The notes beneath the pieces are model-generated. The model saw only the letters and a list, made by a program, of their open reading frames with translations, was not told the DNA's origin and did not search any database. Below, in pieces: positions 976-17,209 of a stretch of 64,000 nt of DNA. The stretch comes from Novosphingobium barchaimii LL02. Lineage in GTDB: Bacteria; Pseudomonadota; Alphaproteobacteria; Sphingomonadales; Sphingomonadaceae. Both the position numbers and the translations under genes were made by a program. The stretch lies in NCBI RefSeq assembly GCF_001046635.1, contig NZ_KQ130458.1, positions 177,615 to 241,614 of the forward strand, written 5' to 3'. Position 1 is the stretch's first letter. Every line of letters starts with the position of its first letter.

Positions 976-989
976 TTACCAGTTGGTAG
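976..989. promoter_or_regulatory. Putative TetR operator, site 1
   Basis: TTACCAGTTGGTAG fits the dyad TKACCANNTGGTMA shared with sites at 1998, 2211, 13778, 16258 and 17196. It lies between the 3' end of the SDR gene and the beheaded gene at 865, so it most likely served the latter. The intergenic stretch 866-1135 contains nothing else recognisable. Confidence 0.55.
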
Positions 990-1135
990 TCAAGCTGGAT
1001 TCTGAGGAACCGGACCGAAAAGTGAGACTAAATGTCCAAGTCCCCTGGCCCGCTAATGCTGCCCCTTTGCGCGCGGCACGCAGCCGCGCGCTTTCACTTT
1101 CTAATGCTGTGTTTTCACAAATAATATCAATGAGT

Positions 1136-1888
1136 TCAAACACCCACGGACCAGCCTCCGTCAATCGGCAGATCCACGCCAGTAATATATTTCGCCTCGT
1201 CAGAGGCCAGAAAAAGCGCGCCGTTGGCAATGTCGATCGGGTCACCGAGCTTTCCCATGGGGATCTGGCTTGTCTGCTGCTTCAGCACGTCAGGGGGGAC
1301 ATTCGCCGTGATCGGCGTGTTCATTACGCCGGGCACGATCGTATTCACCCGAACGCCGCGGTCCACAAACTCCAGCGCCGCCGCCTTGCTCATGATGCGC
1401 ACGGCCGCTTTGGTGGCACAGTAGCTGGCATTGCCGGCGGTGGGAAACATGCCGAGCAACGAACTGATGTTGATGATCGAGCCATTGCCCGACTTCACCA
1501 GCTCGGGGATTGCCGCCTTGATTCCGAGGAAGATAGCAGTCTGATTGACCGCCACCATCTTGTTCCAGCCTTCAATGCTCTCCTCCTCGAAGCCGCCAGG
1601 ATGAATGATACCGGCAGTGTTGGATAGAGTCGTAAGCCCGCCAAAAGCCTCGACGGCAGCGGCAATCGCATTATTCCAGCTCGCCGCATCGGTAACATCC
1701 AACCGAATGAAGAGCGCATCGCCACCAGCAGCCCTGATTTCGGCTACGACGCCCTTGGCCATCTCTTCATTGAGGTCGCCGATTACGACCTTGGCGCCTT
1801 CTTCCGCGAAACGCTTCGCCTGAGCGGCGCCGAGCCCGCTCGCTCCACCCGTGATGAGCGCAACCTTGCCTGCGAGTCTGTTAGCCAT
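1136..1888 (-). CDS. Short-chain dehydrogenase/reductase (SDR)
   Basis: NAD(P)-dependent classical SDR of 250 aa, the usual family length. The Rossmann cofactor motif TGGASGLG is near residue 14, the NTAG-type motif follows at about residue 90 (SNTAGI, a variant of NNAG), the catalytic Ser is in INISSLLG and the Tyr-Lys pair is in YCATK. The C-terminal GGWSVGV is typical. The substrate is probably a hydroxyacyl-CoA or alicyclic alcohol in the pathway encoded by neighbours (inference). It is divergent from the acyl-CoA dehydrogenase at 2256, and the 367-bp gap between them carries two copies of the putative TetR operator, one nearer each gene. Confidence 0.85.
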   Translation of the reverse strand: MANRLAGKVALITGGASGLGAAQAKRFAEEGAKVVIGDLNEEMAKGVVAEIRAAGGDALFIRLDVTDAASWNNAIAAAVEAFGGLTTLSNTAGIIHPGGFEEESIEGWNKMVAVNQTAIFLGIKAAIPELVKSGNGSIINISSLLGMFPTAGNASYCATKAAVRIMSKAAALEFVDRGVRVNTIVPGVMNTPITANVPPDVLKQQTSQIPMGKLGDPIDIANGALFLASDEAKYITGVDLPIDGGWSVGV

Positions 1889-1997
1889 TCTTCATCCTCC
1901 GAAAATGCTCAACTGCGCGAATTGACTTCGCTTCAGCCTTGACCACATCGCCAGTGGCCCCATGTGCCTGGCACCAGCCTGAAAGATCAGAGCATAC

Positions 1998-2011
1998 TTA
2001 CCACATGGTTA
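1998..2011. promoter_or_regulatory. Putative TetR operator, site 2 (before SDR)
   Basis: TTACCACATGGTTA lies 110 bp upstream of the SDR start and matches the six-site consensus with one arm mismatch. The inner ACCACATGGT agrees fully with ACCANNTGGT. Confidence 0.6.
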
Positions 2012-2210
2012 CAAGCCTGCTTTGCGAGAGGACGAAATGCCCTCTTGTCCAGCCGGGGCGAAAGGCGCTGGTTCATACTCTATGTTCTACAATGGCTTCC
2101 TTTACAGCGTTCGCGGCCTGCAATCTCCGACTCGAAGTGAAAAAGCCTACGCAGATGGCGCATGCCCTCCTTTTATCGAATCGCTTGGATCATGCAGGGG
2201 TTAATGATAA

Positions 2211-2224
2211 TTACCATGTGGTCA
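2211..2224. promoter_or_regulatory. Putative TetR operator, site 3 (before acyl-CoA dehydrogenase)
   Basis: TTACCATGTGGTCA lies 32 bp upstream of the acyl-CoA dehydrogenase ATG, a position suited to repression. Its spacer is the reverse complement of that in site 2. Between 1889 and 2255 nothing but these two sites and presumed divergent promoters was seen. Confidence 0.65.
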
Positions 2225-2255
2225 TCATGCCCATGGGCCAGATAAGGACTGCAAT

Positions 2256-3494
2256 ATGAATTTCACGATGTCGCCCGCGGAAACCATGTGGCGTGATCGG
2301 GTCCGTAATTTCATGAACGATGTGGTTCGGCCCCATGATGAGACCTATGCCGCGCAGCAGGCTAGTGGAGAGCGGTGGAAGACTCTGCCGATAATCGAGG
2401 AATTGAAGGAGCGCGCGAAAGCGGACGGCATATGGAATCTTTTCATGCCGCCGCTGGCCGGCCACAATCCCGTCGACAGCAGCTTCGAGTTCGTCGCTCC
2501 GGGCCTTACCAATCTGGAATATGCCTCCTGCGCGGAAGAGATGGGCCGCATCGAATGGGCGTCCGAGGTGTTCAACTGCTCCGCGCCCGATACCGGCAAC
2601 ATGGAGGTCCTGCACCGCTATGGAACTCGCGAGCATAAGGAGCGCTGGCTCCGGCCGCTGATGGAGGGGAAGATTCGCTCGGTCTTTCTGATGACCGAGC
2701 CGCGAGTCGCATCCTCTGACGCCACCAATATCGAAACCTCCATCGTTTGTGACGGCGACCATTATGTGATCAACGGCCGCAAATGGTGGTCTTCGGGCAT
2801 AGGCGATCCTCGATGCTCGGTCGGCATTCTCATGGGAAAGACCGATCCTGATGCCCCGCGCCATGCTCAGCAGAGCATGATCCTCCTGCCGCTCGACACG
2901 CCGGGGGTTAAGGTTCTGCGAATGCTTCCTGTGTTTGGCTATGACGATGCGCCTCATGGTCATGGCGAAGTCGAGCTGAAGGATGTTCGCGTTCCGGTCG
3001 AGAATATGCTGCTCGGCGAGGGGCGCGGCTTTGAAATTGCTCAGGGGCGATTGGGGCCAGGCCGAATCCATCACTGTATGCGCACGATTGGCTTGGCCGA
3101 GGAAATCTTGAAGAAAATGGTGGAGCGGCTCCTTTCGCGCACTGCCTTTGGGAAACGCCTAGCAGAGCATTCCATCTGGGAGCAGCGGATCGCCGAAGCA
3201 CGGACGTCACTTGAAATGACCCGCCTCCTATGCCTCAAGGCCGCCGACGTGATGGACAAGCTTGGGGCCAAGGCAGCACAAGCGGAAATCGCGATGATCA
3301 AGGTGGCGGGGCCGCATATGGCGTTGAAGATCGCCGACGATGCGATCCAGGCGCATGGCGGCGCGGGCGTCGCCGACGACTTCGGCCTTGCGCGCGCCTA
3401 TGCACATCTCCGCACAATGCGCCTGGTGGATGGGCCGGATGAGGTTCACAACCGCGCGATCGCTCGCCTCGAAATGCGCCGCTATCGTCAATAG
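2256..3494 (+). CDS. Acyl-CoA dehydrogenase family protein (ACAD10/11-like)
   Basis: FAD-dependent acyl-CoA dehydrogenase of 412 aa that introduces a 2,3-double bond into an acyl-CoA thioester. The N-terminal helical domain runs to about residue 130, the beta-domain FAD signature [15 protein letters not shown] is near 147-161, and the C-terminal helical domain carries [20 protein letters not shown] and the DGPDEVH motif. The Glu of DGPDEVH lies near the position of the catalytic base in ACAD10/11-type enzymes. It stands alone on the plus strand, convergent with the glutathione reductase operon, behind a TetR-type operator. The natural substrate is unknown; co-regulation with an acyl-CoA ligase suggests the product of that ligase. 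Confidence 0.88.
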
Positions 3495-3537
3495 TTGAAT
3501 TGCCGACCCTGTTATTCGGTCGCAATGACCAGCTAAC

Positions 3538-3571
3538 GGCCTGCCGGTCGCGTTCAGGCGAACGGCAGGCC
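3538..3571. terminator. Hairpin between convergent genes
   Basis: GGCCTGCCG and CGGCAGGCC form a perfect 9-bp stem around a 16-base loop, between the convergent ACAD and glutathione reductase genes. There is no T-tract, so it may act as a weak bidirectional terminator or an mRNA 3' stabiliser. Confidence 0.45.
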
Positions 3572-3628
3572 AAGCGCATGACCGACGCAGCGCCCAGGCG
3601 CATACGTCGGTAGCTGGCAACCCAAGCC

Positions 3629-4975
3629 CTACCGCATCAGCACCAGTTCCTCGGCCATAGAGGGATGCAGTGCTACGGTATCGTCGAACTGGGCCTTGGT
3701 GAGCCTCGCCTTCACCGCGATCGCGGCGGCCTGCAGGATTTCAGGCGCGTCGGGGCCGATCATGTGGATGCCGACCACCACGTCGGTCTCAGGATGGACG
3801 ACCAGCTTGTAGAGCGCGCGCTCGTGGCGGTCGGCGAGCACATTCTTCATCGCCCGGAAGTCGGAGGTGTAGACCTTGACCTCACCGAGCTTGTTGCGCG
3901 CCTCGGCCTCGGTCATGCCCACGCCCGCCATCGGCGGATGGCTGAATACGGCGGACGGGATGCAGCCATAATCGACCCGGCGGGGATTATTGCCGAACAC
4001 AGTGTCGGCAAAGGCCTGGCCCTCGCGGATCGCGACCGGCGTCAGCTGCACCCGGTTGGTGACGTCGCCCACCGCATAGATGCTGGCGCAGCTCGAGCGG
4101 TTGTCGTCGTCCACCTTGATCGCGCCCTTGGCGTCGAGTGCGACGTCGGCCGTCTCCAGCCCGAGATTTTCGGTATGCGGGCGTCGGCCGGTGGCGAATA
4201 GCAGCATGTCGGCCGGGATCGGCTCATGGCCGGTCATGTGCACCAGCAGCGAGCCGTCCGGTTGCTTGTCGACCTTCTCGAAGGCGACGTGGAATTTGAA
4301 CTCGATCCCCTTGGTCATCGAGATCTGGAGCAGCCGGTCGCGGATCTGCTCGTCATAGCCGCGCAGGATCACGTCGGTGCGGTTGACCAGCGTCACATGC
4401 GCACCAAACTGGTGGAAGATGCCGGCAAATTCATTGGCGATATAGCCCGCCCCTGCGATCACCACGCGCTTGGGGAAGGTATCGAGATGGAACACTTCAT
4501 TCGAGGTGATGCCATGCTCGGCCCCCGGAAAATGGGGTACGATCGGCCAAGCGCCGGTTGCGATCAGGATTTTGCCGGCGGTGATCGTCTGGCCCGAGCC
4601 GAGCAGCACCTCATGCGGCCCGGCGACGGTCGCCCGCTCGCGGATGATCTCGACCTTATTGTTGCCGAGCGTCTCGGTGTAGAGACCTTCGAGCCGCGAG
4701 ACCTCGGCGAGCACATTGTCGCGCAGCGCCGACCAGTCAAATTCGCAATCGGGCACCTTCCAGCCAAAGCGCCGTGCATCCTGCAGATCCTCGGCGAAAT
4801 GCGAGCCATAGACGAGCAGCTTCTTGGGCACGCAGCCCCGGATCACGCAGGTGCCGCCCACCCGATGCTCCTCGGCGACCGCCACCCGCGCGCCATAGGC
4901 TGCCGAAACCCGCGCCGCGCGCACTCCGCCCGAGCCCGCCCCAATGACGAACAGATCATAGTCGTAGGTCAACAT
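3629..4975 (-). CDS. gor: Glutathione-disulfide reductase
   Basis: Class I pyridine-nucleotide disulfide oxidoreductase of 448 aa that regenerates GSH from GSSG with NADPH. The FAD motif GAGSGGVRAAR is at the N-terminus, the redox-active disulfide is in GGTCVIRGCVPKK, the NAD(P) motif is GAGYIANEFAG, and the C-terminal active-site His is in LHPSMAEELV. The last gene of a minus-strand run XdhC, molybdopterin-binding protein, Gor, it starts 38 bp after its upstream neighbour. Glutathione may be used by a detoxifying or isomerising step of the pathway (inference). Related mycothione or trypanothione reductases are possible but less likely in this host. Confidence 0.85.
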   Translation of the reverse strand: MLTYDYDLFVIGAGSGGVRAARVSAAYGARVAVAEEHRVGGTCVIRGCVPKKLLVYGSHFAEDLQDARRFGWKVPDCEFDWSALRDNVLAEVSRLEGLYTETLGNNKVEIIRERATVAGPHEVLLGSGQTITAGKILIATGAWPIVPHFPGAEHGITSNEVFHLDTFPKRVVIAGAGYIANEFAGIFHQFGAHVTLVNRTDVILRGYDEQIRDRLLQISMTKGIEFKFHVAFEKVDKQPDGSLLVHMTGHEPIPADMLLFATGRRPHTENLGLETADVALDAKGAIKVDDDNRSSCASIYAVGDVTNRVQLTPVAIREGQAFADTVFGNNPRRVDYGCIPSAVFSHPPMAGVGMTEAEARNKLGEVKVYTSDFRAMKNVLADRHERALYKLVVHPETDVVVGIHMIGPDAPEILQAAAIAVKARLTKAQFDDTVALHPSMAEELVLMR

Positions 4976-5013: not shown

Positions 5014-6006
5014 CTAGAGGGCGCGCGCATCGAGTCGTCCGCCTCCATCCCCGAGCAGACCGCCGACTCCCATGCCGGCGATCACATCGCTATCCACGCC
5101 GAACCCAGCGAAGAGCCGCTCCAATATCAGATCAACTCCATTACGCAGGGGGCTACGTGCACAACCCGGCAACCCAATGACAGCCCGCCTGCGCAACCAA
5201 CCGAGGCACAGGAGATTGCCGGGATCGACCGGCATTCCCACCCGCTCCACGCGCCCGCCCGCTTGTCGAATGGCCGCGGGGACCACATCTTCGCGGTCGG
5301 CCGTCGCCGATGCCGCCATGATCAGCACAAGATCCGCCTCCGAAGAGTCCGCGAGCAAATTGGTTAGAGCCGCTTCATCATGATCGCAGATCCACACATG
5401 ATTCAAATGTCCGCCAAGCCTCTCGACTCGCTGCCTTATAACGGTTTCGGTCTTGGCGAGAAGCTTGAGGCTTACGCTGCCTAGACTGGTTTGCACGAGA
5501 TTGACCGAGAGGGGCCCGAATGCAGCTATACGGACCTTGCAACCATCCGCGACTTGCCCCGCTGAGACAAGTTCGGCTCGGGGCACCGCATAGGGAATTA
5601 TCTTGACGGTGCCTACCACGTCGCCCGCGCGCACCGGCGTCATCGGCGCGACGGCGGCGAATGTGATCGCCTCCGTTGCCCGATTGAGCTTGCCTATGCC
5701 GTCGGGTGCATAAACGAGAAGGCCGTTCGTCTCGGCGATCAGATCAGCCCGCCCATGGACGGGAGGTTCGGCGCGGACATGATCTCCGGCCAGCCTCTGC
5801 GCAATCGCCATCGCGACATCATTTTCACCAATATCGTCCGTATCGAGCCGAGCAACGGTGAGCGCTTCCAATCCCGCATGCCGGACCGCCGCCAGATCAT
5901 CGCAATCGAGCACGCGCCCTTTTGGCAAGCGGCGTCCCGGAATCGAGAGGCTATGGGCCAGGATCGCACCCTCGGCCTCTTCCAGCGATACCCGTCCAAA
6001 CCTCAC
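5014..6006 (-). CDS. Molybdopterin-binding protein (MoeA/CinA-type domain)
   Basis: A 330-aa protein with a start typical of the MoeA-like molybdopterin-binding proteins that travel with XdhC (FGRVSLEEAEGAILAHS, GRRLPKGRVLD). The C-terminal half has the MoCF-type fold signature (TETVIRQRVERLGG, LVLIMAASATADREDVVP, LPGCARSPLRNGVDLILER). Such proteins help load or insert the molybdenum cofactor into xanthine-dehydrogenase-type hydroxylases. It overlaps the XdhC gene by 4 bp (ATGA), so translation is coupled. No molybdenum hydroxylase is in the window, so its partner may have been on the part removed by IS6100. Confidence 0.75.
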   Translation of the reverse strand: MRFGRVSLEEAEGAILAHSLSIPGRRLPKGRVLDCDDLAAVRHAGLEALTVARLDTDDIGENDVAMAIAQRLAGDHVRAEPPVHGRADLIAETNGLLVYAPDGIGKLNRATEAITFAAVAPMTPVRAGDVVGTVKIIPYAVPRAELVSAGQVADGCKVRIAAFGPLSVNLVQTSLGSVSLKLLAKTETVIRQRVERLGGHLNHVWICDHDEAALTNLLADSSEADLVLIMAASATADREDVVPAAIRQAGGRVERVGMPVDPGNLLCLGWLRRRAVIGLPGCARSPLRNGVDLILERLFAGFGVDSDVIAGMGVGGLLGDGGGRLDARAL

Positions 6007-6944
6007 TTCGAGCTCCGCAAGACTGTCGTCATCTCGGCCAGGATGGAAACGGCGATCTCGGCTGGTCCCGCCGCACCGATTGGGAGCCCTGCCGGCCCAT
6101 GGATGCGGGCGAGCTCCTTATCCGTGAAGCCGGCGGCGCCGAGCCGCTCGAGCCGGGCAGCATGTGTTTTTCGTGATCCCAATGCGCCGATATAGAAGGC
6201 CGGCGAGTTCAGAGCGCGCGCCAGCGCCGGATCATCAAGCTTTGGATCATGCGTCAAACTGACTACCGCGGAGCCGCCGTCCGGGCGCCAACGATCAAGC
6301 GCTTCGTCGGGCCAATTCTCGTCTACAGGTTGATCAAATCGGGCAGCCGCCGCGAACATGCCGCGCGGATCGATAACGGTTGTCTCATAGCCCGCAAGGC
6401 GCGCCATCGGGACGAGCAGCTGGGCGATATGAACCGCCCCCACGATCGCGAGACGACGGCGCGGAGGATAGAGATTGAAGAACCATTCCTTCAGAGGGGC
6501 CGCATTCTCGCGGGTCGCACCGCTTGTCAGATCCGTCGCCAGACCCAGCGGCAAACCCTGCGCCCGTGCATCAACGATACGCTCGATCAGCGCAGGCGGA
6601 AAATGTGCCCCATCGACGGTCTGTAACAGGATGGAGATTCGGCCGCCGCAAGCAAGTCCCACCTCCCAGGCCTGCGCGTCAGCCACGCCATAATCCAGGC
6701 GACGAAAGCCGCCCCCTGCCGCAATCAATTCGAGAGCCTGAACGATGACGTCGCCTTCGACACAACCGCCGCTGACGGAGCCTTCGAAAATTCCGTCGTC
6801 GCGGATCACCAGATGGGATCCCGCCCGCCGAGGCGCCGACCCCCAGGTCTCGATCACTGTGGCAAGCGCGACATGACGGCCCGCCGCAAGCCATAGCGCC
6901 GCGGCATCTATCACGACATCCAGGTCATCCGCTGCCTCAGCCAT
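6003..6944 (-). CDS. XdhC family molybdenum-hydroxylase maturation protein
   Basis: XdhC/CoxI family, about 313 aa. The N-terminal XdhC_CoxI domain holds VIETWGSAPRRAGSHLVI and the hallmark GSVSGGCVEGDVI; the C-terminal Rossmann-like domain has RRRLAIVGAVHIAQLL, and AFYIGALGSRKTHAARLERL is the conserved C-terminal signature. XdhC proteins bind and sulfurate Mo cofactor before insertion into xanthine-dehydrogenase-like enzymes. An upstream TTG at 6962 is an alternative start; the ATG at 6944 is preferred. First gene of an operon with the molybdopterin-binding protein and Gor. Confidence 0.85.
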   Translation of the reverse strand: MAEAADDLDVVIDAAALWLAAGRHVALATVIETWGSAPRRAGSHLVIRDDGIFEGSVSGGCVEGDVIVQALELIAAGGGFRRLDYGVADAQAWEVGLACGGRISILLQTVDGAHFPPALIERIVDARAQGLPLGLATDLTSGATRENAAPLKEWFFNLYPPRRRLAIVGAVHIAQLLVPMARLAGYETTVIDPRGMFAAAARFDQPVDENWPDEALDRWRPDGGSAVVSLTHDPKLDDPALARALNSPAFYIGALGSRKTHAARLERLGAAGFTDKELARIHGPAGLPIGAAGPAEIAVSILAEMTTVLRSSK

Positions 6945-6984
6945 GATCCCATTCTGATCCAAAAAATGCTGAACTTAAAGGATT

Positions 6985-7114: not shown

Positions 7115-9649
7115 TTAGAAACGGAAGCTGGTCTTTACTCCGTAGGTGCGTGGCATGGCCGCATACCGAACCGCCGTATCGTACAGGAACGCTACGTTGT
7201 TCCAGTAATATTCGTTGGTCAGATTCTTCACCCAGAACTGGACCTGCCATGCATTGTCCGCATCCTGAAGTGCAATGCGAGCATCAACGGTGGTAAACGG
7301 CTTGATGTAGGTTACCGCCTTCGTCACCGCATCATGACCGATCGCAGCCTGCGTGCTGCTGTTATAGGTCAGGCTGGCACCCAAATTCACTGCCAGGCTG
7401 GCGCCAAGCGGAACGGTATAGTCGGCGTTTGCACTCGCATTCCATTTCGGAGCGAATGGCACCCGGTCGCCGGCAAAGTCAGTAAATACCCCGTCGGAAT
7501 TCAGACCGGAGTATTTTTTGATCTTCGCGTCGACATAGGTCACCGCGCCACTGAGGTTGAGGCCATCGACCGGCCGCCATACGATGGCCAGCTCACCGCC
7601 CTTGACGGTGGACTTAGGCACGTTGTCGAGTGCGAACGCGATGCCGAAAGGCGGCTGATCGAAGAAGCCCATCAGCTGCTTGTTGCGGTAGTCATAGTAG
7701 AAGCCAGCACCGGTGAGCAGCACCGAGCGGTCGAACAGCTCCTGCTTGAAACCCGCTTCGTAGGCAATGACCGATTCCTGAACGACCGGACGATATTGAC
7801 TGACAGTCGCCGCCGAAATCGTTGGGAAGCTGCCTGCCTTATAGCCCTTGGTCACGTTCGCGTAAAATAGCGAACCAGCCACCGGCTTGAAGTCGACGCC
7901 AACCTTCCAGGACAGATTATCCTCATTGAGGTTGGTATCGCCGAGGATGCTCTCAAAGGCATCCGGCCGTTGCCCATTCTCTACACCGATAAGTGGATTG
8001 CCGTTGGCATCCGTCAGCGGGTCGATCGCACTGGTGCAGTCACCCGGCTGCAGGGGGGTCGATGCTCCCAGGCCCACCAGGGATCTGGCGAACGTGTGGA
8101 TAATGTCGAACAGCCTGCGCCGGGCGTCGTCGCCATGTATCGGGTCGAAATTATCATCAAAGGTGCAGCCGACGAAATGGCGCTTGCTGTTCGTATAGCG
8201 AAGGCCACCCTTCACCGTGATGGTGTCTGTCACATCGAAATCGACGTTTCCAAAGAACGCATAATTTTCGATCGTCTGCCGGCTGAAATCCGATCCTCTG
8301 GAAAATGGCACCGGCAGCAAAGTGCTCGTCCCGTCTATCTGAGAGAAATTCGAGACGATGCTATCTCCATTGGAAATCTTGCTTAGCTCATAGACTTTGC
8401 TGTGCTGATAATTAGCACCGACGGTGACCCGCATGCGCGATGCGGCGTCGTTCGACAGGCGCAATTCCTGGTTGAAGTCACGAATATATCCGTCGTTGGC
8501 GACATAATCATAGTCTTGCACCGCAGTGCCGTCATCCGCCGCCCGGCTATTACGCTTATAGTCCGAATAAGAAGTGATCGAGGTCAGGGTCAGATTATCG
8601 GTCACGTCATAGTCGGTACGCAGCGCGGCATTATACATTCTGTCGTCACGGAAAGGTTCAGCATCCGCGGACCAATCGGCGGCGCGCGCCTTGCGCGGCG
8701 CATATGGCGTCACCAATGTACCCGTTTCGAAATTATAAAGCTGAGGGCTCAAAAATTGCTCCTGCCCCGCCGTGGCAGGACGCAGGAAGATGTACTGCCC
8801 GATCTGCGGCTCGCTGCCGTCATGCCAACCACTCAGGCTGGCCATGAAACTGAGTCTATCGGTGGGCTTCCAGTCTAGAGTGATACGGCCAGCGAATTCC
8901 CGCCGCTTCCCGAACTCGTCACCTGGACGAGAGAAGTAATTTTTCTGCCACGATCCCGCATAAGTGCTGCGGCCAGCGAGCCGTATATTGAGCGTGTCGG
9001 TCACAGGTCCACTGATGAAAGCTTCGCCTTCAACCGTGCTAAATCGTCCATAGCCAAGGCTGAACCCGCTCGTCAGAGTGTCGGTCGGCTTGTTGGCGAT
9101 GTAGTTGATCGCGCCGCCGGTGGAATTCTGGCCGAACAGAATGCCCTGCGGACCTTTCAGTACCTCAACACGCTCCATGTCCAAACCGACCCCGATGCCG
9201 GGCAGCGCGGAGAAGCTGAGAGGCGCCTGGTCGACATAAACGCTAACCGCAGGCGATGCCGCCAGAGCGGTATCGAAATAGCCGACGCCACGCAGCGTGA
9301 ACACCGGGGTGCCGAATGCCGACCGCGCATAGGTCAGACCCGGGACGGCCTTGGTCAAATCCTGGACGCTGCTGATACCCTGCTTGACGAGCTGATCGCC
9401 ACTGACCGCCGCAATCGTGAGGCCGACCTTGTTGATCGATTCAGCGCGCTTGCTGGCGGTGACGATGATCTCGCCGGCACCCAGACTTTCACTCTGCGGC
9501 GCTTCGGCGGCTGCGGATTGGGCAGCAGGCTGCTCCGCCGGAGCCTCGCTCTGGGCGAATGCGGGCGAACAGAAGCAAAGAAGCGCGACGCCCGATGCGT
9601 ATAAGTTAATGCCGTGCCGTTTCGTTGTGCTTTCTGGTCTGACAATCAT
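7115..9649 (-). CDS. TonB-dependent outer-membrane receptor
   Basis: Outer-membrane active transporter of 844 aa energised by TonB-ExbBD. A signal peptide (LYASGVALLCFCSPAFAQS) precedes a TonB-box-like stretch (GEIIVTASKRAES). The plug domain follows, with VERVEVLKG-type MERVEVLKGPQGILFGQNSTGGAINYI near residue 175. The beta-barrel fills the rest and ends in an aromatic residue (KTSFRF). A GGAGGG ribosome site favours the second of two nearby ATGs (9649). It lies downstream of the acyl-CoA ligase/E1/lipoyl genes on the same strand and is a likely importer of the hydrophobic substrate (inference). A truncated homologue with the same plug motifs is at 28604. Confidence 0.9.
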   Translation of the reverse strand: MIVRPESTTKRHGINLYASGVALLCFCSPAFAQSEAPAEQPAAQSAAAEAPQSESLGAGEIIVTASKRAESINKVGLTIAAVSGDQLVKQGISSVQDLTKAVPGLTYARSAFGTPVFTLRGVGYFDTALAASPAVSVYVDQAPLSFSALPGIGVGLDMERVEVLKGPQGILFGQNSTGGAINYIANKPTDTLTSGFSLGYGRFSTVEGEAFISGPVTDTLNIRLAGRSTYAGSWQKNYFSRPGDEFGKRREFAGRITLDWKPTDRLSFMASLSGWHDGSEPQIGQYIFLRPATAGQEQFLSPQLYNFETGTLVTPYAPRKARAADWSADAEPFRDDRMYNAALRTDYDVTDNLTLTSITSYSDYKRNSRAADDGTAVQDYDYVANDGYIRDFNQELRLSNDAASRMRVTVGANYQHSKVYELSKISNGDSIVSNFSQIDGTSTLLPVPFSRGSDFSRQTIENYAFFGNVDFDVTDTITVKGGLRYTNSKRHFVGCTFDDNFDPIHGDDARRRLFDIIHTFARSLVGLGASTPLQPGDCTSAIDPLTDANGNPLIGVENGQRPDAFESILGDTNLNEDNLSWKVGVDFKPVAGSLFYANVTKGYKAGSFPTISAATVSQYRPVVQESVIAYEAGFKQELFDRSVLLTGAGFYYDYRNKQLMGFFDQPPFGIAFALDNVPKSTVKGGELAIVWRPVDGLNLSGAVTYVDAKIKKYSGLNSDGVFTDFAGDRVPFAPKWNASANADYTVPLGASLAVNLGASLTYNSSTQAAIGHDAVTKAVTYIKPFTTVDARIALQDADNAWQVQFWVKNLTNEYYWNNVAFLYDTAVRYAAMPRTYGVKTSFRF

Positions 9650-9766: not shown

Positions 9767-10002
9767 TTATTTCGTTTCTATTCGGCAGACTGCCGCTCCA
9801 ACAGCAGCATCATCACCTTCAGAAACCAATATTTCAATGAGAGTTCCATCGCACGGGGCTTCCACCTCGGACGTCACCTTTTCGGTTTCCACCTCATAAA
9901 GGATGTCACCGAGAGCAAAGTCTGCGCCCAGCTGTACGTGCCAGCGATCGTGCCTTCTTCCATGTTCATGCCAAACATCGGCAACTTAAGCGACATCTTC
10001 AT
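9767..10002 (-). pseudogene. Frameshifted lipoyl-carrier (biotinyl/lipoyl domain) gene
   Basis: The ATG overlaps the E1-beta stop codon (ATGA), giving MKMSLKLPMFGMNMEEGTIA. In that frame the sequence then runs to an early stop. One frame over it continues as WHVQLGADFALGDILYEVE and on through the lipoyl-lysine motif ETEKVTSEVEAP to ICRIETK-like end and TAA at 9767. The total of 236 bp is one base short of a whole number of codons, so a single base is missing between the two halves (or four, giving the more usual TIARW). The intact protein would be a free-standing lipoyl domain of about 78 aa, the swinging-arm substrate of the adjacent E1. A sequencing error is the alternative to a real mutation. 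Confidence 0.75.
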
Positions 10003-10982
10003 GCAACGTCTCCATCGCGTACAGCCGCGCGGATCGCAGCCTCAACCATAGCCTCATCAGGGATCACCGCATTTTCGAGATGGGGCGCGAACGGGATCGC
10101 CACATCCTGCACGGTGACCCGGCGCACGGGACCACGCAACGAAGCAAAACCCTGTTCGGCGACGATAGCGGCAATTTCACTTGCGGCGCTGCATGTAGCA
10201 CGCGCCTCATCGAGGATTACTAGGCGCCCGGTCTTGCGAACCGAGGCCAGGATCAGCTCCTTATCGAGCGGGAAGAGCGTCATCGGATCGACAACTTCGA
10301 CCTCGATCCCCTCTTCGGACAATGTCGCCGCTGCGCGCATTGCATGACGCACCATCACACCGATCGCGACCACCGTGACATCGCGACCCTCGCGCTTCAC
10401 CGATCCCTTGCCGAGCGGCACGACATGATCGCCATCGGGCACTTCTCCTTGCTCGCCGCCGCGGCGGGTGGGCAGCAGGAAGAGGACCGGATTATCCTCA
10501 CGGATGCTGGCCTTCATCAAACCCTTGGCGTCGGCTGGCGTGCTGGGGATCACGACCTTGATGCCGCCAAGGTTCATAACGCCTGGATAGGGTGCATCGG
10601 AATGCTGGGCGCCAGATGAGCGGCCGGCACCTGTAGATGCCAGGTAAACGAGCGGCAGCTTGAGCTGGCCCGCCGTCATATAGCGAAGCTTGGCGGCCTG
10701 GTTCGCGATGGAGTCAAAGCCGGTATAAAGGAAGTTGCCATACATCATGTGGCAGATCGGGCGATAGCCGGCCGCTGCCATCCCAACCGCCATACCGGTC
10801 ATGACAACCTCGGAGATTGGCGTGTTGATCACCCGCTTGCCCCCGAACTTGTCGAAGAGGCCGCGTGTATCGCCGAACAAGCCGATCCTGACATCCTCGC
10901 CATAGAGGATCACACGATCGTCGCGCTCCATTTCTTCATGAAGCGCTTCGTTGACAGCATGGATGAGGCGCCGCTTAGCCAT
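9999..10982 (-). CDS. 2-oxoacid dehydrogenase E1 component, beta subunit
   Basis: Transketolase-like beta subunit of a pyruvate/acetoin/branched-chain dehydrogenase E1, 327 aa from the ATG beginning MAKRRLIHAVNEALHEEM. The frame is open further upstream, but that part overlaps E1-alpha too far. It shows the conserved LYGEDVRIGLFGDTRGL, NTPISEVVMTGMAVGMA and GRSSGAQHSDAPYPG segments of the pyrimidine-binding domain and the C-terminal transketolase domain (VVDPMTLFPLDKE). It overlaps E1-alpha by 8 bp and the lipoyl gene by 4 bp. In such systems E1 decarboxylates a 2-oxoacid with thiamine diphosphate and passes the acyl group to a lipoyl domain. Confidence 0.88.
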   Translation of the reverse strand: MAKRRLIHAVNEALHEEMERDDRVILYGEDVRIGLFGDTRGLFDKFGGKRVINTPISEVVMTGMAVGMAAAGYRPICHMMYGNFLYTGFDSIANQAAKLRYMTAGQLKLPLVYLASTGAGRSSGAQHSDAPYPGVMNLGGIKVVIPSTPADAKGLMKASIREDNPVLFLLPTRRGGEQGEVPDGDHVVPLGKGSVKREGRDVTVVAIGVMVRHAMRAAATLSEEGIEVEVVDPMTLFPLDKELILASVRKTGRLVILDEARATCSAASEIAAIVAEQGFASLRGPVRRVTVQDVAIPFAPHLENAVIPDEAMVEAAIRAAVRDGDVA

Positions 10983-11946
10983 TGGCGAACATATCCTCAA
11001 AAGCACGGGAGACAGGGGGAAGAGGATCATTCAAAGCATCGGTGATGGCGCTTTCGGTAACGCCCTCGACCCTGGCCCGGATAGCGGCCACGTCCTTTTC
11101 CAGATCCTCGGAGACGAGAAATTCTTCCAGCCGGCTAATCGGATCGCGCTGCTTCCAGCTCTCGACTTCTTCCTGGGTGCGATAAGGCGCTGCAAGGAAG
11201 CTTTCTTCGGATTCGACATGAGTCCGCCAGCGATAGGTACGAGCCTCGATGAGCGTGGCCCCTTCGCCTGAGCGCGCCCGCGCAACCGCCTCGCCAACGA
11301 CCCGCCATACGGCGTGGACGTCATTGCCGTCGACCAGCGCGCCGGGCATGCCAAACGGTTCGGCGCGGCGCCAGATATCGCCAGCGTTCACCGTCTCATA
11401 AGGGGAGAATTGAGAAAATCCGTTATTCTCGCAGACCAGCAACAGTGGAAGCTTCCACAGGGCGGCGATGTTCAGCGCCTCGGAAATGACGCCCTGGCTG
11501 GACGCACCGTCACCGAAAAACACCACGGCAACCCGGCCCTCGCCGTCAAGCTGCGCGCCGAGTGCCGCACCGACCGCGAGCCCTACGCCACCGCCGACAA
11601 TGCCGTTGGCGCCCAATATGCCCTTCGAGACGTCGGCAACATGCATCGAGCCGCCCTTGCCGTGGCAAATGCCGGTCTCTTTGCCCATGAGCTCCGCCGC
11701 CATAGCGCGCGGATCTCCGCCCTTCGCCAGGAAGTGACCGTGCCCGCGATGAGTGCTGGCAACCCAGTCGCTGTCGTCAAGATGTGCGCAGACGCCGGTG
11801 GCCACCGCTTCCTGGCCAATATAAAGATGCACATTGCCAGGAAGTTCGCCGGCTTTCCCGAGGTCACCAAGCCGCTCCTCCATCCTGCGGATAAGCAGCA
11901 TGCGCTCAAAAAGCCGTAATGACCGTTGAAGGTCCGGACCATTCAT
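10975..11946 (-). CDS. 2-oxoacid dehydrogenase E1 component, alpha subunit
   Basis: Thiamine-diphosphate-binding alpha subunit, 323 aa. The ThDP motif GDGASSQG...CENN is at about residues 142-172, and the phosphorylation-loop type segment (YRWRTHVESEE) lies further on. Resembles acetoin/pyruvate dehydrogenase E1-alpha. The start overlaps the acyl-CoA ligase stop by 4 bp (ATGA). The pairing with an acyl-CoA ligase and a separate lipoyl carrier rather than a full E2 is unusual; no E2 acyltransferase and no dedicated dihydrolipoamide dehydrogenase are seen nearby. Confidence 0.88.
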   Translation of the reverse strand: MNGPDLQRSLRLFERMLLIRRMEERLGDLGKAGELPGNVHLYIGQEAVATGVCAHLDDSDWVASTHRGHGHFLAKGGDPRAMAAELMGKETGICHGKGGSMHVADVSKGILGANGIVGGGVGLAVGAALGAQLDGEGRVAVVFFGDGASSQGVISEALNIAALWKLPLLLVCENNGFSQFSPYETVNAGDIWRRAEPFGMPGALVDGNDVHAVWRVVGEAVARARSGEGATLIEARTYRWRTHVESEESFLAAPYRTQEEVESWKQRDPISRLEEFLVSEDLEKDVAAIRARVEGVTESAITDALNDPLPPVSRAFEDMFANG

Positions 11947-13586
11947 AAGGACGCCTCCGTGGGCTGAGCCTGCGCAACCAGGCGATCACGCAGGATATTC
12001 TTCTGGACTTTGCCCGAAGCCGTGCGCGGAAACGCGTCGACCATCTCCACGCGCTCCGGCCATTTCTGTCGCGCTAGCCCTTGCTCCCCGAGGAAGCTGC
12101 CAATGTCGGCGACGGAAACGGGCGCATCCGCAATCACATAGGCGCAGACCCCTTCACCCAGCCTTCCATGCGGCATCGCCACCACTGCGACGTCGGTGAT
12201 TGCAGGATAGCGATGCAGCGCATCTTCGATTTCCTGAGGGCTGATATTCTCGCCCCCGCGCACGATAACATCCTTTTTACGGCCGCTCACCGCCAGGAAA
12301 TCGCCAAATTCGATCCGTCCGAGATCACCCGTGCGGAAGAAGCCGTCCTGATCGAACGCATCGTCCGTCAGCGCTTGATCGGTATAGCCCAGCATCACCT
12401 CCGGGCCGCGAACAAGGATCTCTCCTTCCGCCCCCTCGCCCAGCAACGCTCCCGTCGCTTCGTCGATGATCCGCACTTCATTGTTGACGATGCGCCCGTC
12501 CGTGGTCGCGCCAAGCTCAAGCTCTTCGACGCCCCGGACACCCAGCGTGACCGTTGGCGCCTCGCTGCTTCCGAAGGCGCGCGATATGGCGCACCCCGGG
12601 ATCGCCTGCGCCGCCCGGCGCACAAGTTCCGGCGCAACCGGCGCCCCGCCGCAGATAAACAAACGCATCGTGGGGAGCAGAGCCCCGGCCGACACGACCG
12701 TATCCGTAAGTTCCCTGAGGAAGGGAGTTGCGCCAACGCTCATCGTTACGCCGTGCCGCTTGATCAGCTCGACCGCCTCAGAGGCGTCCCATCGCTCCAT
12801 CAACACCGCGGCACAGCCGGTGACGAAACCCATTTCGAGCGCGTAAAGATAGCCGGTTATATGCGTAACCGGCGAGGGCATCAGCACCACATCGCTCGCA
12901 CCAAGGCCCCAATAGTCCCGAGCGGCAAGGAGCTCGGCCATTAAGCTATTGTGGCTGTGCAGAACGCCCTTGGGATGGCTTGTCGTGCCCGATGTATAGA
13001 GCAGCAGCTTGACGGCATTGGGATCGGGATGGCCGCTTGCCACGTCAGGCGCGTTTGAAGCGAGAAGCTCCTCATAACCAAGACAGCCCTCCGCCTCACC
13101 CCGGACGGTAACGATGGTGGCAAGATCGGGAAGGCCCGCCTGAAGCGCGCGCGCCATATTGACATAATCGAAGCCACGGAAGCTCGTCGGCACGAACAGA
13201 ATCTTAGCACGGCCGTCGCGCAGGATGTAGCCGACCTCCGCCTCGCGATAGATTGGGATGATGGGATTGCAGACAAAGCCGCCGATACAACAAGCCAGGT
13301 TGATTACCGCGGTTTCGAGCCAGTTGGGAAGCTGGAAGCTTACCACATCGCCCGGAACTAGGCCACGCGTGGCAAGTACCGCAGCAATCTTTCTTGCCTT
13401 GGTAACAAGATTACCCAGATAAAGCGAGCGATCGCCCTCAATAAATGCGAGCATGTCAGGCTTTTCGATCACCAGACGCGCAGCGATATCGGCGATCGAC
13501 TCATTCCGCCATGCGCCTGAAGCTGTGTAGTTGTCGATCATCGCGTCGTTCAGACGGGTGATCCAACCGCTCACGTCCTTTCGCAC
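11943..13586 (-). CDS. Acyl-CoA synthetase (AMP-binding, class I adenylate-forming)
   Basis: ATP-dependent acid-CoA ligase of about 547 aa. The P-loop LLYTSGTTSHPKG is around residue 190, the adenine motif and FRTGDLGRIEFGDFLAVSGR follow, then GRKKDVIVRGGENISPQEIE, and the C-terminal catalytic Lys is in RTASGKVQK. The domain order and length fit medium/long-chain or cyclohexanecarboxylate-type ligases. A GTG at 13586 preceded by GAGGGG is the best start; the frame is open to 13613. It leads the operon ligase, E1-alpha, E1-beta, lipoyl carrier, with 4-8 bp overlaps. A TetR-type operator lies about 190 bp upstream. The acid it activates is unknown. Confidence 0.86.
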   Translation of the reverse strand: MRKDVSGWITRLNDAMIDNYTASGAWRNESIADIAARLVIEKPDMLAFIEGDRSLYLGNLVTKARKIAAVLATRGLVPGDVVSFQLPNWLETAVINLACCIGGFVCNPIIPIYREAEVGYILRDGRAKILFVPTSFRGFDYVNMARALQAGLPDLATIVTVRGEAEGCLGYEELLASNAPDVASGHPDPNAVKLLLYTSGTTSHPKGVLHSHNSLMAELLAARDYWGLGASDVVLMPSPVTHITGYLYALEMGFVTGCAAVLMERWDASEAVELIKRHGVTMSVGATPFLRELTDTVVSAGALLPTMRLFICGGAPVAPELVRRAAQAIPGCAISRAFGSSEAPTVTLGVRGVEELELGATTDGRIVNNEVRIIDEATGALLGEGAEGEILVRGPEVMLGYTDQALTDDAFDQDGFFRTGDLGRIEFGDFLAVSGRKKDVIVRGGENISPQEIEDALHRYPAITDVAVVAMPHGRLGEGVCAYVIADAPVSVADIGSFLGEQGLARQKWPERVEMVDAFPRTASGKVQKNILRDRLVAQAQPTEASL

Positions 13587-13777: not shown

Positions 13778-13791
13778 TCACCGTTTGGTCA
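13778..13791. promoter_or_regulatory. Putative TetR operator, site 4 (before acyl-CoA ligase operon)
   Basis: TCACCGTTTGGTCA, with core ACC-GTT-TGGT, matches the regulon dyad with one changed arm base. It lies in the 278-bp stretch between the ligase start and IS6100 copy 2, which otherwise contains no gene. Confidence 0.55.
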
Positions 13792-13846: not shown

Positions 13847-13864
13847 CAATTCCCAACTCCTGCC
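13847..13864 (+). repeat. 18-bp inverted flank shared with IS6100 copy 3
   Basis: The 18 bp directly left of IS6100 copy 2 (CAATTCCCAACTCCTGCC) are the exact reverse complement of the 18 bp directly left of copy 3 (17330-17347). Such an inverted duplicated flank is what intramolecular replicative transposition leaves when it inverts the DNA between old and new IS copies, except that IS6-family duplications are normally 8 bp. Confidence 0.85.
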
Positions 13865-14744
13865 GGCTCTGTTGCAAAAATCGTGAAGCTTGAGCATGCT
13901 TGGCGGAGATTGGACGGACGGAACGATGACGGATTTCAAGTGGCGCCATTTCCAGGGTGATGTGATCCTGTGGGCGGTGCGCTGGTATTGTCGCTATCCG
14001 ATCAGCTATCGCGACCTTGAGGAAATGCTGGCGGAACGCGGCATTTCGGTCGACCATACGACGATCTATCGCTGGGTCCAGTGCTACGCCCCGGAGATGG
14101 AGAAGCGGCTGCGCTGGTTCTGGCGGCGTGGCTTTGATCCGAGCTGGCGCCTGGATGAAACCTACGTCAAGGTGCGGGGCAAGTGGACCTACCTGTACCG
14201 GGCAGTCGACAAGCGGGGCGACACGATCGATTTCTACCTGTCGCCGACCCGCAGCGCCAAGGCAGCGAAGCGGTTCCTGGGCAAGGCCCTGCGAGGCCTG
14301 AAGCACTGGGAAAAGCCTGCCACGCTCAATACCGACAAAGCGCCGAGCTATGGTGCAGCGATCACCGAATTGAAGCGCGAAGGAAAGCTGGACCGGGAGA
14401 CGGCCCACCGGCAGGTGAAGTATCTCAATAACGTGATCGAGGCCGATCACGGAAAGCTCAAGATACTGATCAAGCCGGTGCGCGGTTTCAAATCGATCCC
14501 CACGGCCTATGCCACGATCAAGGGATTCGAAGTCATGCGAGCCCTGCGCAAAGGACAGGCTCGCCCCTGGTGCCTGCAGCCCGGCATCAGGGGCGAGGTG
14601 CGCCTTGTGGAGAGAGCTTTTGGCATTGGGCCCTCGGCGCTGACGGAGGCCATGGGCATGCTCAACCACCATTTCGCAGCAGCCGCCTGATCGGCGCAGA
14701 GCGACAGCCTACCTCTGACTGCCGCCAATCTTTGCAACAGAGCC
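13865..14744 (+). mobile_element. IS6100 copy 2 (complete, 880 bp)
   Basis: Bounded by GGCTCTGTTGCAAA at 13865 and TTTGCAACAGAGCC at 14744. The left flank CTCCTGCC and right flank ATTGAGCT do not match, so there is no target duplication. The right end cuts into an SDR gene. The orientation is opposite to copies 1 and 3. Confidence 0.97.
13926..14690 (+). CDS. tnpA: IS6100 transposase, copy 2
   Basis: 254-aa IS6-family DDE transposase identical to the copy at 29-793. An in-frame upstream ATG at 13890 would add 12 residues. Confidence 0.95.
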   Translation: MTDFKWRHFQGDVILWAVRWYCRYPISYRDLEEMLAERGISVDHTTIYRWVQCYAPEMEKRLRWFWRRGFDPSWRLDETYVKVRGKWTYLYRAVDKRGDTIDFYLSPTRSAKAAKRFLGKALRGLKHWEKPATLNTDKAPSYGAAITELKREGKLDRETAHRQVKYLNNVIEADHGKLKILIKPVRGFKSIPTAYATIKGFEVMRALRKGQARPWCLQPGIRGEVRLVERAFGIGPSALTEAMGMLNHHFAAAA

Positions 14745-15181
14745 ATTGAGCTTATGTTGATAATGCTGCCTCGCCCAAGAGGGGCCATGCGGCGGGCAAC
14801 GGCCTGGCCGACGCGCCAGACGCCGGTCAGGTTGGTATCGAGAACCTGTGCCCAATCTTGTTCCGTCATATCGAGAAAAGGCGCGGTCGCCGCGACGCCG
14901 GCATTGTTGACAAGGATCTGGATCGGGCCGAGCTCGTCCTCGATCCGTGCGACGGCCGCATCAACGCTGGCCCGATCGGTAACATCGAGCGCTACGGCAA
15001 GTGCTTTGCCGCCTTGGTCGGTAATCGCCTTTGCCGTGTCCGCGACCCGGTCGATGCTGCGCGCCGCGAGGGCGACATGTGCGCCGTTCGCCGCGAGCAG
15101 CAGTCCGAAATGGCGCCCAAGACCGCTCGATGCGCCGGTCACCAATGCGATACGGTCCTGGAGAGGATATACTTCGGACAT
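14745..15181 (-). pseudogene. SDR family oxidoreductase, C-terminus removed by IS6100
   Basis: The N-terminal 145 or so residues of a classical SDR: ALVTGASSGLGRHFG cofactor motif, the NNAG motif in ILVNNAGVAAT, DTNLTGVWRVGQAVA, and the start of the Ser-containing strand GSIINISS. IS6100 copy 2 begins right there, so the catalytic Tyr-x-x-x-Lys and the C-terminus are missing and the enzyme is dead. The start used follows AGGA. It is preceded on the same strand by an alpha/beta hydrolase (72 bp upstream) and formed one transcription unit with it. Confidence 0.85.
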
Positions 15182-15253
15182 GATCACCGGTCCTGTTTTC
15201 CGCAGAGGATATCTCTTTGGCTACCCCGCAGGCGGCCGTGAAAAGCGTTCGCC

Positions 15254-16168
15254 TTAGCGGAGCGTCTCGTTGAGCCACCTCAGTCCCGCCTCGGCGGCCA
15301 TCATGCCTCTCGCCTTGTCGGAATAGAGCGTTATGTGGGTCGTGTGCGGCAACACCACAAGTTCCTTGCGGGGGCAAGGAATGGCATTGAACGTATCGAT
15401 TTCAAGATCCCATAGGGTAATATCGTCCCCTTCGGCAACCACCATCATGACAGGTGTGTTGATGACGCGACCAACAAAGCTGTTCACATTGTAATTTAGG
15501 AGCAATTCGACCGATTCGACAGTGCTCTTGTTCTGATAGAGCGGCGCGTCATTTTTCTTGATCTCGTTAAAGACAATTTCCGCTTCCGGCACCGGCCAGC
15601 AAGGAATGTCATTGACGTAATCAATGGTGGCGTGCGGCAAATAGAGTTGCTCACCGGGCTTTTCATAACGTAGCGCGCGATCATCGGCGATCAGCTTCAG
15701 AAGTTGGCGCCAGCCGTTTACGCCATGGATACGACGCATATTCTCATATCCGTCGATAACGGGAACATGGCTGATGACCGTTTTCACCCGCTCGTCGATC
15801 GCTGCAAGGATGATGACATGGCCGCCGGAATAGGAAATGCCCCAGGCCCCGATCTTGTCGGGGTCGACCGCAGGGTGGCGCTCGAGGAAGCTGATGGCGT
15901 TCTGATAATCCCGGATCTGCGCCCAGGGATCCAGATGCTGGCGATTGTCGCCGCCACTGACCCCGAGGTTGCGATAGTCGATGATGAGCGCGTTAAAGCC
16001 ATTTTCAGCGAACTTCTGCGCATAGGTCGGCATCGTGACCTCACGCACATAGCACCAGCCGCCAGCGAGCACGACAGTGGGCCGACGCCCGCCTTCGTCG
16101 GGTGTGTAGAGCCAACCCCGAACAGTATCACCTTCGGACTGGAACTCTACGTCGAGCCTCTGCACCAT
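15254..16168 (-). CDS. Alpha/beta hydrolase (dienelactone-hydrolase/peptidase S15-like)
   Basis: 304-aa cytoplasmic hydrolase without a signal peptide. The oxyanion-strand region TVVLAGGWCYV, the nucleophile elbow GISYSGG (Ser near residue 130), the acid Asp in VAEGDDITLWD and the His in LPHTTHITLYSD make a full triad. A good ribosome site (GGAGGGCAAGGG) precedes the ATG. It may hydrolyse an ester, lactone or a C-C bond of a pathway intermediate; the family does not reveal which. A TetR-type operator lies 90 bp upstream, and TetR itself lies farther upstream on the same strand. Confidence 0.82.
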   Translation of the reverse strand: MVQRLDVEFQSEGDTVRGWLYTPDEGGRRPTVVLAGGWCYVREVTMPTYAQKFAENGFNALIIDYRNLGVSGGDNRQHLDPWAQIRDYQNAISFLERHPAVDPDKIGAWGISYSGGHVIILAAIDERVKTVISHVPVIDGYENMRRIHGVNGWRQLLKLIADDRALRYEKPGEQLYLPHATIDYVNDIPCWPVPEAEIVFNEIKKNDAPLYQNKSTVESVELLLNYNVNSFVGRVINTPVMMVVAEGDDITLWDLEIDTFNAIPCPRKELVVLPHTTHITLYSDKARGMMAAEAGLRWLNETLR

Positions 16169-16257
16169 TACCCTTGCCCTCCCTCGCTTAATTAGAGCCG
16201 CGGCCGGACGGTCGCGCCGTGGCGCCCATCCTCATCGCTATCATTGCCCTAACTAAG

Positions 16258-16271
16258 TGACCAACTGGTAA
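16258..16271. promoter_or_regulatory. Putative TetR operator, site 5 (before hydrolase)
   Basis: TGACCAACTGGTAA fits TKACCANNTGGTMA at every position and lies in the 221-bp gap between hydrolase and TetR genes. Confidence 0.65.
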
Positions 16272-16389
16272 CGTGTCAAGATAGCTTCTCTGCGCCTCCA
16301 GAGCTTGGCACCCGATATGCATGGGCCTCGGCCCAATGGGGCCGAGGCCGTGCCGTTAACTTATTTGAAAGCAGGAAGTTTTGCCGGGT

Positions 16390-17148
16390 TCAGCCTATCG
16401 ACGCTACATCAAGGGGAGAAGGCCTTTTTTTGGTGGCCCTGGCCAGTCGTGGCTTGCGGACGCGGCGCTGGGGAGGAGCCACCAGCCCGGGATAAATGTT
16501 GACGACCCCATCCAGAAACAGAATAATTTCCATCTCTACCCAGGCATCGACGTTTTCAGGCGTGTCGACCCCATATATGAATTTCCGGACGCCGAGATAA
16601 AAGATGCGCGAATTGACGCCAAGCACGAGTTCGGATTCGTTCTGTGTGAGAGGCATCTCTTCAATCGTAGGCAGGCCAAGATCGTGACGAAATTCGGCGC
16701 AAACCGGCCTGACGAGATGTTCTTGCATGAAAGAATACCAGCGACCGTTTATGTCGGATCCCTTAAGACCTGCGAACATGAATAGGCGGACCCAGTCATA
16801 ATTAAGCACTGTCTGGGCGAGCGCCTGGTATACATTTACCAGCCGCTCTCGCAACGGAACATTGCGGTTGCTGATTACAATTTCCCAGTATGGATTCCAC
16901 CGGCCGATGAATACTTCCTGATACACGCGTTCAATCAGTGCGTTCTTGCTGGCAAAATAGCGAAATAACAAAGGGTGCGTGATGTTCAGCCGCTTCGCTA
17001 GCTCGCGTGTGTCACCACCAAACCCTACTTCCGCGAAGAATTGCACGGCGCCTTCCACGATAAGCCGCTCGCGTTCGGCGCGCGGCAACCGCGGAGTGTC
17101 GGTCTGCGTTTTCTTACGCGGGGTCGTCACCTCATTCCCTTCTTTCAT
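16390..17148 (-). CDS. TetR/AcrR family transcriptional regulator
   Basis: About 252-aa repressor. The N-terminal helix-turn-helix is in ERLIVEGAVQFFAEVGF and TRELAKRLNITHPLLFRYF, about residues 35-75; a ligand-binding all-helical C-terminal domain and a basic tail (PQRRVRKPRLARATKKR) follow. The start is uncertain: TTG at 17175, ATG at 17148 (used here) or GTG at 17130, the last with the best ribosome site. A perfect copy of the shared dyad lies just upstream at 17196-17209, suggesting autoregulation. It is the natural candidate to bind all six sites. It lies in a segment apparently inverted by IS6100. Confidence 0.85.
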   Translation of the reverse strand: MKEGNEVTTPRKKTQTDTPRLPRAERERLIVEGAVQFFAEVGFGGDTRELAKRLNITHPLLFRYFASKNALIERVYQEVFIGRWNPYWEIVISNRNVPLRERLVNVYQALAQTVLNYDWVRLFMFAGLKGSDINGRWYSFMQEHLVRPVCAEFRHDLGLPTIEEMPLTQNESELVLGVNSRIFYLGVRKFIYGVDTPENVDAWVEMEIILFLDGVVNIYPGLVAPPQRRVRKPRLARATKKRPSPLDVASIG

Positions 17149-17195
17149 AACCAAGCGCCTTGGCGCCGATGCCAATGGTCGTGAATGCTAAAAAA

Positions 17196-17209
17196 TGACC
17201 GGCTGGTCA
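17196..17209. promoter_or_regulatory. Putative TetR operator, site 6 (before tetR gene itself)
   Basis: TGACCGGCTGGTCA: perfect 5-bp arms TGACC/GGTCA around a 4-bp centre, 48 bp before the chosen TetR start. It is the most symmetric of the six sites. Confidence 0.65.

Follow-up and report, generated by a model that had tools for sequence, protein, structure and literature searches.

A putative TetR-family regulon on a rearranged derivative of the linA island in Novosphingobium barchaimii LL02

The window analysed here, a 64-kb stretch of contig NZ_KQ130458.1 of Novosphingobium barchaimii LL02, carries near its left end a catabolic gene cluster interspersed with copies of the insertion sequence IS6100 (Table 1), in which six copies of one 14-bp dyad, TNACCRNNYGGTNA, accompany a gene for a TetR-family protein. 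To judge from sequence identity, this part of the window is a rearranged derivative of the linA island of hexachlorocyclohexane (HCH) degraders, and the dyad is probably (we estimate a probability of about 0.8) the operator of the TetR-family protein, which would repress its regulon as well as its own gene. The initial annotation had proposed such a TetR regulon, and it remains the best reading, suggested by one dyad for each unit in the fullest island copy, a dyad at about half of the tetR homologues, covariation with the recognition helix and overlap with promoters; that the cluster is the linA/linX island had not been recognised.

Positions 857–13860 are 99.8% identical to plasmids pMI2 of Sphingobium sp. 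MI1205 and pSRL1 of Sphingobium indicum B90A, and parts of this segment are also matched by pTK3 and pTK4 of strain TKS and by pISP1 of Sphingomonas sp. MM-1. The first short-chain dehydrogenase/reductase (SDR) gene is linX by the annotation of the relatives' copies, and linX and its flanking genes are present at near identity to the linA island of HCH degraders. In pMI2, pSRL1, pTK4 and pISP1, linA adjoins linX, with a further SDR gene annotated between the two in pMI2 and pSRL1; linA itself has no match within the 64-kb window. The island copies of MI1205 (pMI2), B90A, TKS and MM-1 have DNA ~99.8–100% identical to the window, a common gene set and common IS6100 borders, whereas the SDR-linA-flavoprotein segment is missing from the window. 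Compared with pMI2, the window has the tetR block inverted, the lipoyl gene frameshifted and two changes in linX (G188V and I145L) that are private to it among the copies compared. IS6100 (1–857, junction at ~855) occupies the place of SDR-linA-flavoprotein, so that all that is left of the SDR-linA unit is its promoter, the dyad at 976 and approximately the first three codons, while the window no longer has the seventh dyad, the one that precedes the flavoprotein gene. The cluster is thus broken, as the initial annotation had it, by IS6100 replacement, an inverted block and the lipoyl-gene frameshift, and the beheaded gene that it saw behind the dyad at 976 is the SDR-linA unit of the relatives. 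The inverted block, consisting of a truncated second SDR gene (SDR2'), the hydrolase gene and tetR, lies between two IS6100 copies. Its junctions (13865 and 17348) have ~18 bp of target in common, which does not fit the 8-bp target duplication given for IS6100 (PMC4478539).

The fullest island copy found is chromosomal, in genome G412 (presumably strain B90A), and is flanked by two IS6100 copies. Its order is SDR2', hydrolase, tetR, ligase-E1 alpha-E1 beta-lipoyl-TonB-XdhC-Mob-gorA, acyl-CoA dehydrogenase (ACAD), linX, SDR-linA and flavoprotein, and it carries frameshifts of its own in the SDR and the TonB receptor. Seven dyads are found in it, one before each transcription unit (hydrolase, tetR, ligase operon, ACAD, linX, SDR-linA and flavoprotein), with none further in the 39.5 kb read; those of the ligase, linX and SDR-linA units are one base off the consensus. 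The scattering of the target genes described for the window is partly an artefact of IS6100 rearrangement. The tetR gene was detected in 4 of 94 genomes of the genus, presumably all HCH-degrading strains, and in 1 of 396 genomes sampled from the order.

Table 1. Dyads, genes and insertion sequences at the left end of the window
Feature	Position	Strand	Remarks
IS6100 transposase open reading frame	29..829	-	254-aa match at 32-793, 100% identity to annotated IS6100
Dyad of orphan SDR-linA promoter	976..989	-	reverse complement CTACCAACTGGTAA; TTGACT overlaps left edge
linX, 2,5-DDOL (2,5-dichloro-2,5-cyclohexadiene-1,4-diol) dehydrogenase gene	1136..1888	-	relatives' annotation; 99.2% identity
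Dyad before linX	1998..2011	-	110 nt before linX
Dyad before ACAD	2211..2224	+	~32 nt before ACAD start
Acyl-CoA dehydrogenase (ACAD)	2256..3494	+	Pfam PF00441, PF02770
gorA-like disulphide reductase	3629..4975	-	last gene downstream of ligase
MoCF-domain (molybdopterin-binding) protein	5014..6006	-	
XdhC family protein	6003..6962	-	
TonB-dependent receptor	7115..9649	-	amino-acid change hot spot between copies
Lipoyl-domain protein gene	9767..10002	-	4-base deletion ~9942-9946, window copy only
2-oxoacid dehydrogenase E1 beta	9999..10982	-	start per pMI2 annotation
2-oxoacid dehydrogenase E1 alpha	10975..11946	-	
Acyl-CoA ligase	11943..13586	-	first gene of presumed operon; start per pMI2 annotation
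Dyad in ligase promoter spacer	13778..13791	-	TTGACA-2-dyad-2-TAAAGT
IS6100 copy	13865..14744	+	between ligase operon and inverted tetR block
Second SDR gene, truncated (SDR2')	14745..15187	-	
Alpha/beta hydrolase	15254..16168	-	
Dyad in hydrolase promoter spacer	16258..16271	-	TTGACA-2-dyad-2-TAGTTA, weak -10
tetR gene	16390..17148	-	252 aa, TetR_N; recognition helix from about His58
Dyad before tetR	17196..17209	-	48 nt before tetR; overlaps TTGACC
IS6100 copy	17348..18227	-	closes inverted tetR block

All six dyads are intergenic, lie where they had first been placed and carry ACC-NNN-TGGT; the consensus originally given for them, TKACCANNTGGTMA, is slightly off, fitting two of the six exactly, three with one mismatch and the dyad at 13778 with two. 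With at most one mismatch, the refined consensus TKACCRNNYGGTMA has 7 matches in the window (the seventh at 62916) against 0.98 expected and a maximum of 4 in 100 shuffles. The statement that the motif does not obviously occur elsewhere holds within the window but not across a whole genome with the looser form TNACCNNNTGGTNA, which occurs at 19 distinct places in the nearest relative genome (G001, 4.6 Mb). Five of these lie inside the 15.7 kb of the island, for which the other 14 places give an expectation of 0.05 (Poisson P ~2e-9 for 5, a figure that is only descriptive because the pattern was derived from the same sites), and genome-wide the form is modestly commoner than its backward control (27 vs 18 strand matches). 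Counting the dyad places that fall inside open reading frames proved uninformative as a check, with chance frames of at least 100 aa covering most places, including four of the six sites. Two of the four intergenic substitutions between island copies (13779 and 13789) fall inside the ligase dyad (TCACCGTTTGGTCA vs TTACCGTTTGGGCA). In such an IS-rich island, and with 14 looser matches elsewhere in G001, the similar sites might be copied promoter DNA or chance rather than operators; yet outside the promoter hexamers the seven dyads have dissimilar flanks, and the dyad recurs at tetR genes of other genomes, changing with the recognition helix, which leaves this explanation hardly credible.

The dyads are also placed with regard to promoter-like sequences. 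At three of the seven promoters (flavoprotein, ligase and hydrolase) the dyad stands in the same register after TTGACA, inside the -35/-10 spacer, with two bases on either side of it and then TATCCT, TAAAGT or, as a weak -10, TAGTTA, respectively; the overlap is clearest at the flavoprotein and ligase promoters (2 of 7), with 10 of 12 hexamer letters each. At SDR-linA, linX and tetR a -35-like hexamer overlaps the left edge of the dyad and the -10s are weak. A promoter scanner, applied to the linA side, recovered the flavoprotein promoter, with no excess in the class total (2 vs 1.7 expected). Positions within or over promoter-like hexamers fit repression by occlusion. They speak less for TetR acting as an activator, or for a second regulator that also uses the dyads: although TetR-family activators exist, and FasR, a named activator, is among the structural neighbours of the predicted model, the dyads lie within or over the hexamers and not upstream of them at six of the seven units (three of them weak), and we regard this alternative as improbable.

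The protein itself has an N-terminal helix-turn-helix domain (PF00440, E 6.1e-10). Its AlphaFold2 model, of moderate confidence (mean predicted local distance difference test score 80.5), is helical throughout, including the C-terminal ligand/dimer domain, and finds TetR-family structures on top at modest TM-scores, a generic result; Thermus FadR (TM-score ~0.45) and the other TetR-family structures are distant neighbours. A palindrome before its own gene and before the putative targets is what a TetR repressor would be expected to have, and on sequence grounds this is the case here.

The search at tetR homologues used a form of the dyad with no base fixed at position 4/11 (TNANCRNNYGNTNA) and covered at most 300 nt ahead of the tetR start and 60 nt after it. 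In a first set of 22 unique homologues (35–62% identity, among them four loci and six records picked from 59) the dyad was present at 12 and absent at, for instance, L060; two narrower forms, run on 21 of these, found 11 and 10 homologues with a site against simulated means of 0.07 and 0.04 (largest 2, 2000 simulations). A second, hold-out set of 34 homologues (one duplicate dropped, 14 records picked from 56) had the dyad at 14, against a simulated mean of 0.45 and a largest value of 4 in 1000. Taken together, 26 of 56 homologues carry a site. A motif-blind count of inverted repeats with 4-base arms in 55 upstream regions placed three frames of TTATCANNTGATAA at the top by excess, each in 9 regions against 0.1–0.3 expected. 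Moreover, in four Burkholderiales genomes tetR stands with hydrolase and ligase genes and has a dyad-like site before it; E1 genes accompany it in three of them, and the fourth is represented by a contig of 10 kb.

The operator changes with the protein. In the predicted model the recognition helix begins at residue 58. In the six His58 proteins with sites (the lin TetR, L027 and its close relative L028, L050, L051 and L035) dyad position 4 is C or G, never T, while all 21 Gln58 proteins with sites (7 from the first set, 14 from the second) have T there. A 6/21 split of this kind would arise by chance once in 296,010, kinship ignored. L035, with His58 within an otherwise Gln-like helix and an ACCA operator, is telling for the suggested link between residue 58 and position 4.

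Several points weigh against the dyad being the TetR operator. A site is missing from 30 of the 56 homologues, including L029 at 49% identity and L066, which could be scanned over 137 nt only; the first 22 homologues helped to shape the searched pattern; and the raw count of 9 in the motif-blind survey lies within the GC-rich repeat maxima of shuffles (mean 8.3, largest 12). In the hold-out set 4 of 16 sites have T in one half only and G in the other, and the set bears on the covariation for Gln58 alone, because its single His protein (L075) has no site. Around the promoters the -10s are weak, with pair scores of 8/12 for the hydrolase (9 with a 16-bp spacer), 8 for SDR-linA, 8 for linX and 7 for tetR, and ACAD has no convincing hexamer pair around its dyad. 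The case was built from sequence. Finally, linA expression is reported as constitutive (PMC4478539, citing Suar 2004), which counts against tight repression.

With these points included, we still favour the TetR operator. A TetR dimer would probably bind each copy of the dyad, and the bound dimer may cover the -35/-10 region and so shut the promoter; through the dyad at 17196 it would also repress its own gene. A pathway intermediate, possibly an acyl-CoA, might then release it. In the fullest island copy TetR would thereby control seven units, SDR-linA and linX included, and all of these units may serve one common pathway.

Perhaps the regulon is real and linA is nevertheless driven by a constitutive promoter of its own, merely downstream of a TetR-controlled SDR gene; we give this a substantial chance, though clearly short of even. 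The report of constitutive expression speaks for it, as does the state of the SDR: pTK4, pISP1 and the B90A chromosome have a shortened open frame, and in RL-3 and G224 the gene is split between frames, while in pMI2 and pSRL1 it is open. The SDR-linA dyad is also one consensus base short, and G224, a draft of ~180 contigs, has linA with no tetR found. Yet SDR and linA lie ~60 bp apart on the same strand, and linA is followed by a strong hairpin (-20.3 kcal/mol, z -3.9) and then T-rich sequence, a hairpin that the terminator scan did not list. The composition of linA (GC 0.535, 0.60 at third codon positions) resembles that of tetR (0.538 and 0.61), and a promoter scan, which finds few promoters here, returned nothing in the SDR-linA gap.

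For linA, the gate of lindane degradation, neither a source nor a natural role is known to have been established. A search of 397 genomes of the family gave LinA matches at E 1e-12 in 8; in two of these the match is linA itself, and in the other six it is a homologue of 38–41% identity, in one case (G1312) apparently split over the two ends of a contig. A LinX-like SDR (56–60%) and an ACAD (32–37%) adjoin the LinA homologue in all six sphingomonad genomes, and genes that weakly match the TonB receptor and the ligase (24–39%) lie nearby. Pfam searches with some genes of three of these loci found an alpha/beta hydrolase and an Oxidored_FMN enzyme (L117), a luciferase-like enzyme (L118), and MaoC, TetR, FAD_binding_2 and AMP-binding proteins (L123). 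On pISP0 of MM-1, a LinA-like gene (42%) stands ahead of a truncated LinX-like SDR (58%), with an apparent SDR end preceding it. The LinA residues D25, H73 and R129, named as essential (PMC6771000), are conserved in all nine aligned homologues, although position 129 is Leu in the LinA of the B90A plasmid. When the linA products of L020/L021 are compared with L045 and L116–L120, the B90A plasmid LinA shares its residue with most or all of the natural homologues at positions 23, 96, 113 and 133 and with one of six at position 71, the MI1205 LinA with none at any of these; positions 115 and 129 have the reverse pattern.

The recurrence of the LinX-ACAD-LinA set apart from the HCH island supports, and does not prove, that linA plausibly belongs to the natural pathway of the regulon. 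The natural LinA operons do not look controlled by the TetR of the island, since no dyads were found at L116, L118, L119, L120 and L122 and only one stray match each at L117 and L123. At the Burkholderiales ACAD loci L062 and L063 the family form of the dyad is absent, and the lin form at one mismatch gives 1 and 4 matches, none shared. One of the four genomes of L027–L030 has a LinA match, at an unusable E of 0.05 (G703 and G563 were not searched). A cyclohexanecarboxylate-type aromatisation was considered for the pathway; linX, SDR and flavoprotein hit ChcB/ChcC-type models far below the curated cut-offs, and no substrate is therefore claimed. At about even odds, we suggest a combined account in which LinA was not invented for lindane and came from a natural sphingomonad pathway (LinX-like SDR, ACAD and a LinA-like SnoaL enzyme), the island being the TetR-repressed regulon of that pathway, later loosened or cut by IS6100 so that linA became constitutive, and in which the TonB receptor of the island, the fastest to change between copies, would be under adaptation to phage or a new substrate.

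Eight island copies, not all of them complete, differ by 50 substitutions, and 31 of these fall in the gene for that receptor; counted site by site, 28 change the amino acid and 3 are silent. In the four intact copies 18 codons vary, 16 of them with amino-acid change and 4 with at least three amino acids, a pattern suggestive of recent diversifying selection, with substrate or phage as the agent. In E1 beta (10500–10728), seven silent changes set pSRL1 and RL-3 apart from all other copies compared and perhaps reflect recombination. The SDR start in pMI2 has a 20-base tandem repeat (L020 ~17978–18010). Further to the right in the window, 14.6 kb (28604–43180, with RND efflux and antiporter genes) are identical to the MI1205 plasmid NZ_CP005190 and partly to MM-1 pISP0; the replicon of the window thus mixes pieces of different lin-strain plasmids.

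By analogy, EdcR of the estrogen cluster of Caenibius tardaugens is the closest characterised sphingomonad parallel that we found, likewise a TetR repressor of a catabolic cluster, with a palindrome over the -10 of several promoters; its proposed operator, TnnCnnTACnAnTnGTAnnGnnA, is a motif other than the dyad (PMC8700777). Two Burkholderiales clusters from metagenome-assembled genomes (L027 and L028; TetR-ABC transporter-hydrolase-ligase-E1-lipoyl) have dyad-like sites before tetR, with half-sites TNACCA and TGAGCA, and proteins identical to those of the island at 60–62% (TetR), 57–60% (ligase), 66–74% (E1), 65–68% (lipoyl) and 48% (hydrolase). They differ from the island in that LinA and a close LinX are missing from the 20-kb loci and the ACAD (64% identical) lies elsewhere in the genome. 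In the passages available, one study lists a linA contig with a TetR regulator and a TonB receptor and draws no link between them (PMC5351058), and another argues for a single origin of each lin gene and leaves the source unnamed (PMC4478539). No report of a regulon around linA was found in the open-licence literature searched.

The type of system is already known and its mechanism ordinary; its placement around linA did not turn up in the literature searched, and its interest lies in the link to the origin of linA. With a putative regulon around linA, and LinX-ACAD-LinA relatives in six sphingomonad genomes, the origin of linA becomes testable. Moreover, the helix-operator rule, by which His58 goes with C or G and Gln58 with T at position 4, predicts operators for a whole subfamily of TetR proteins.

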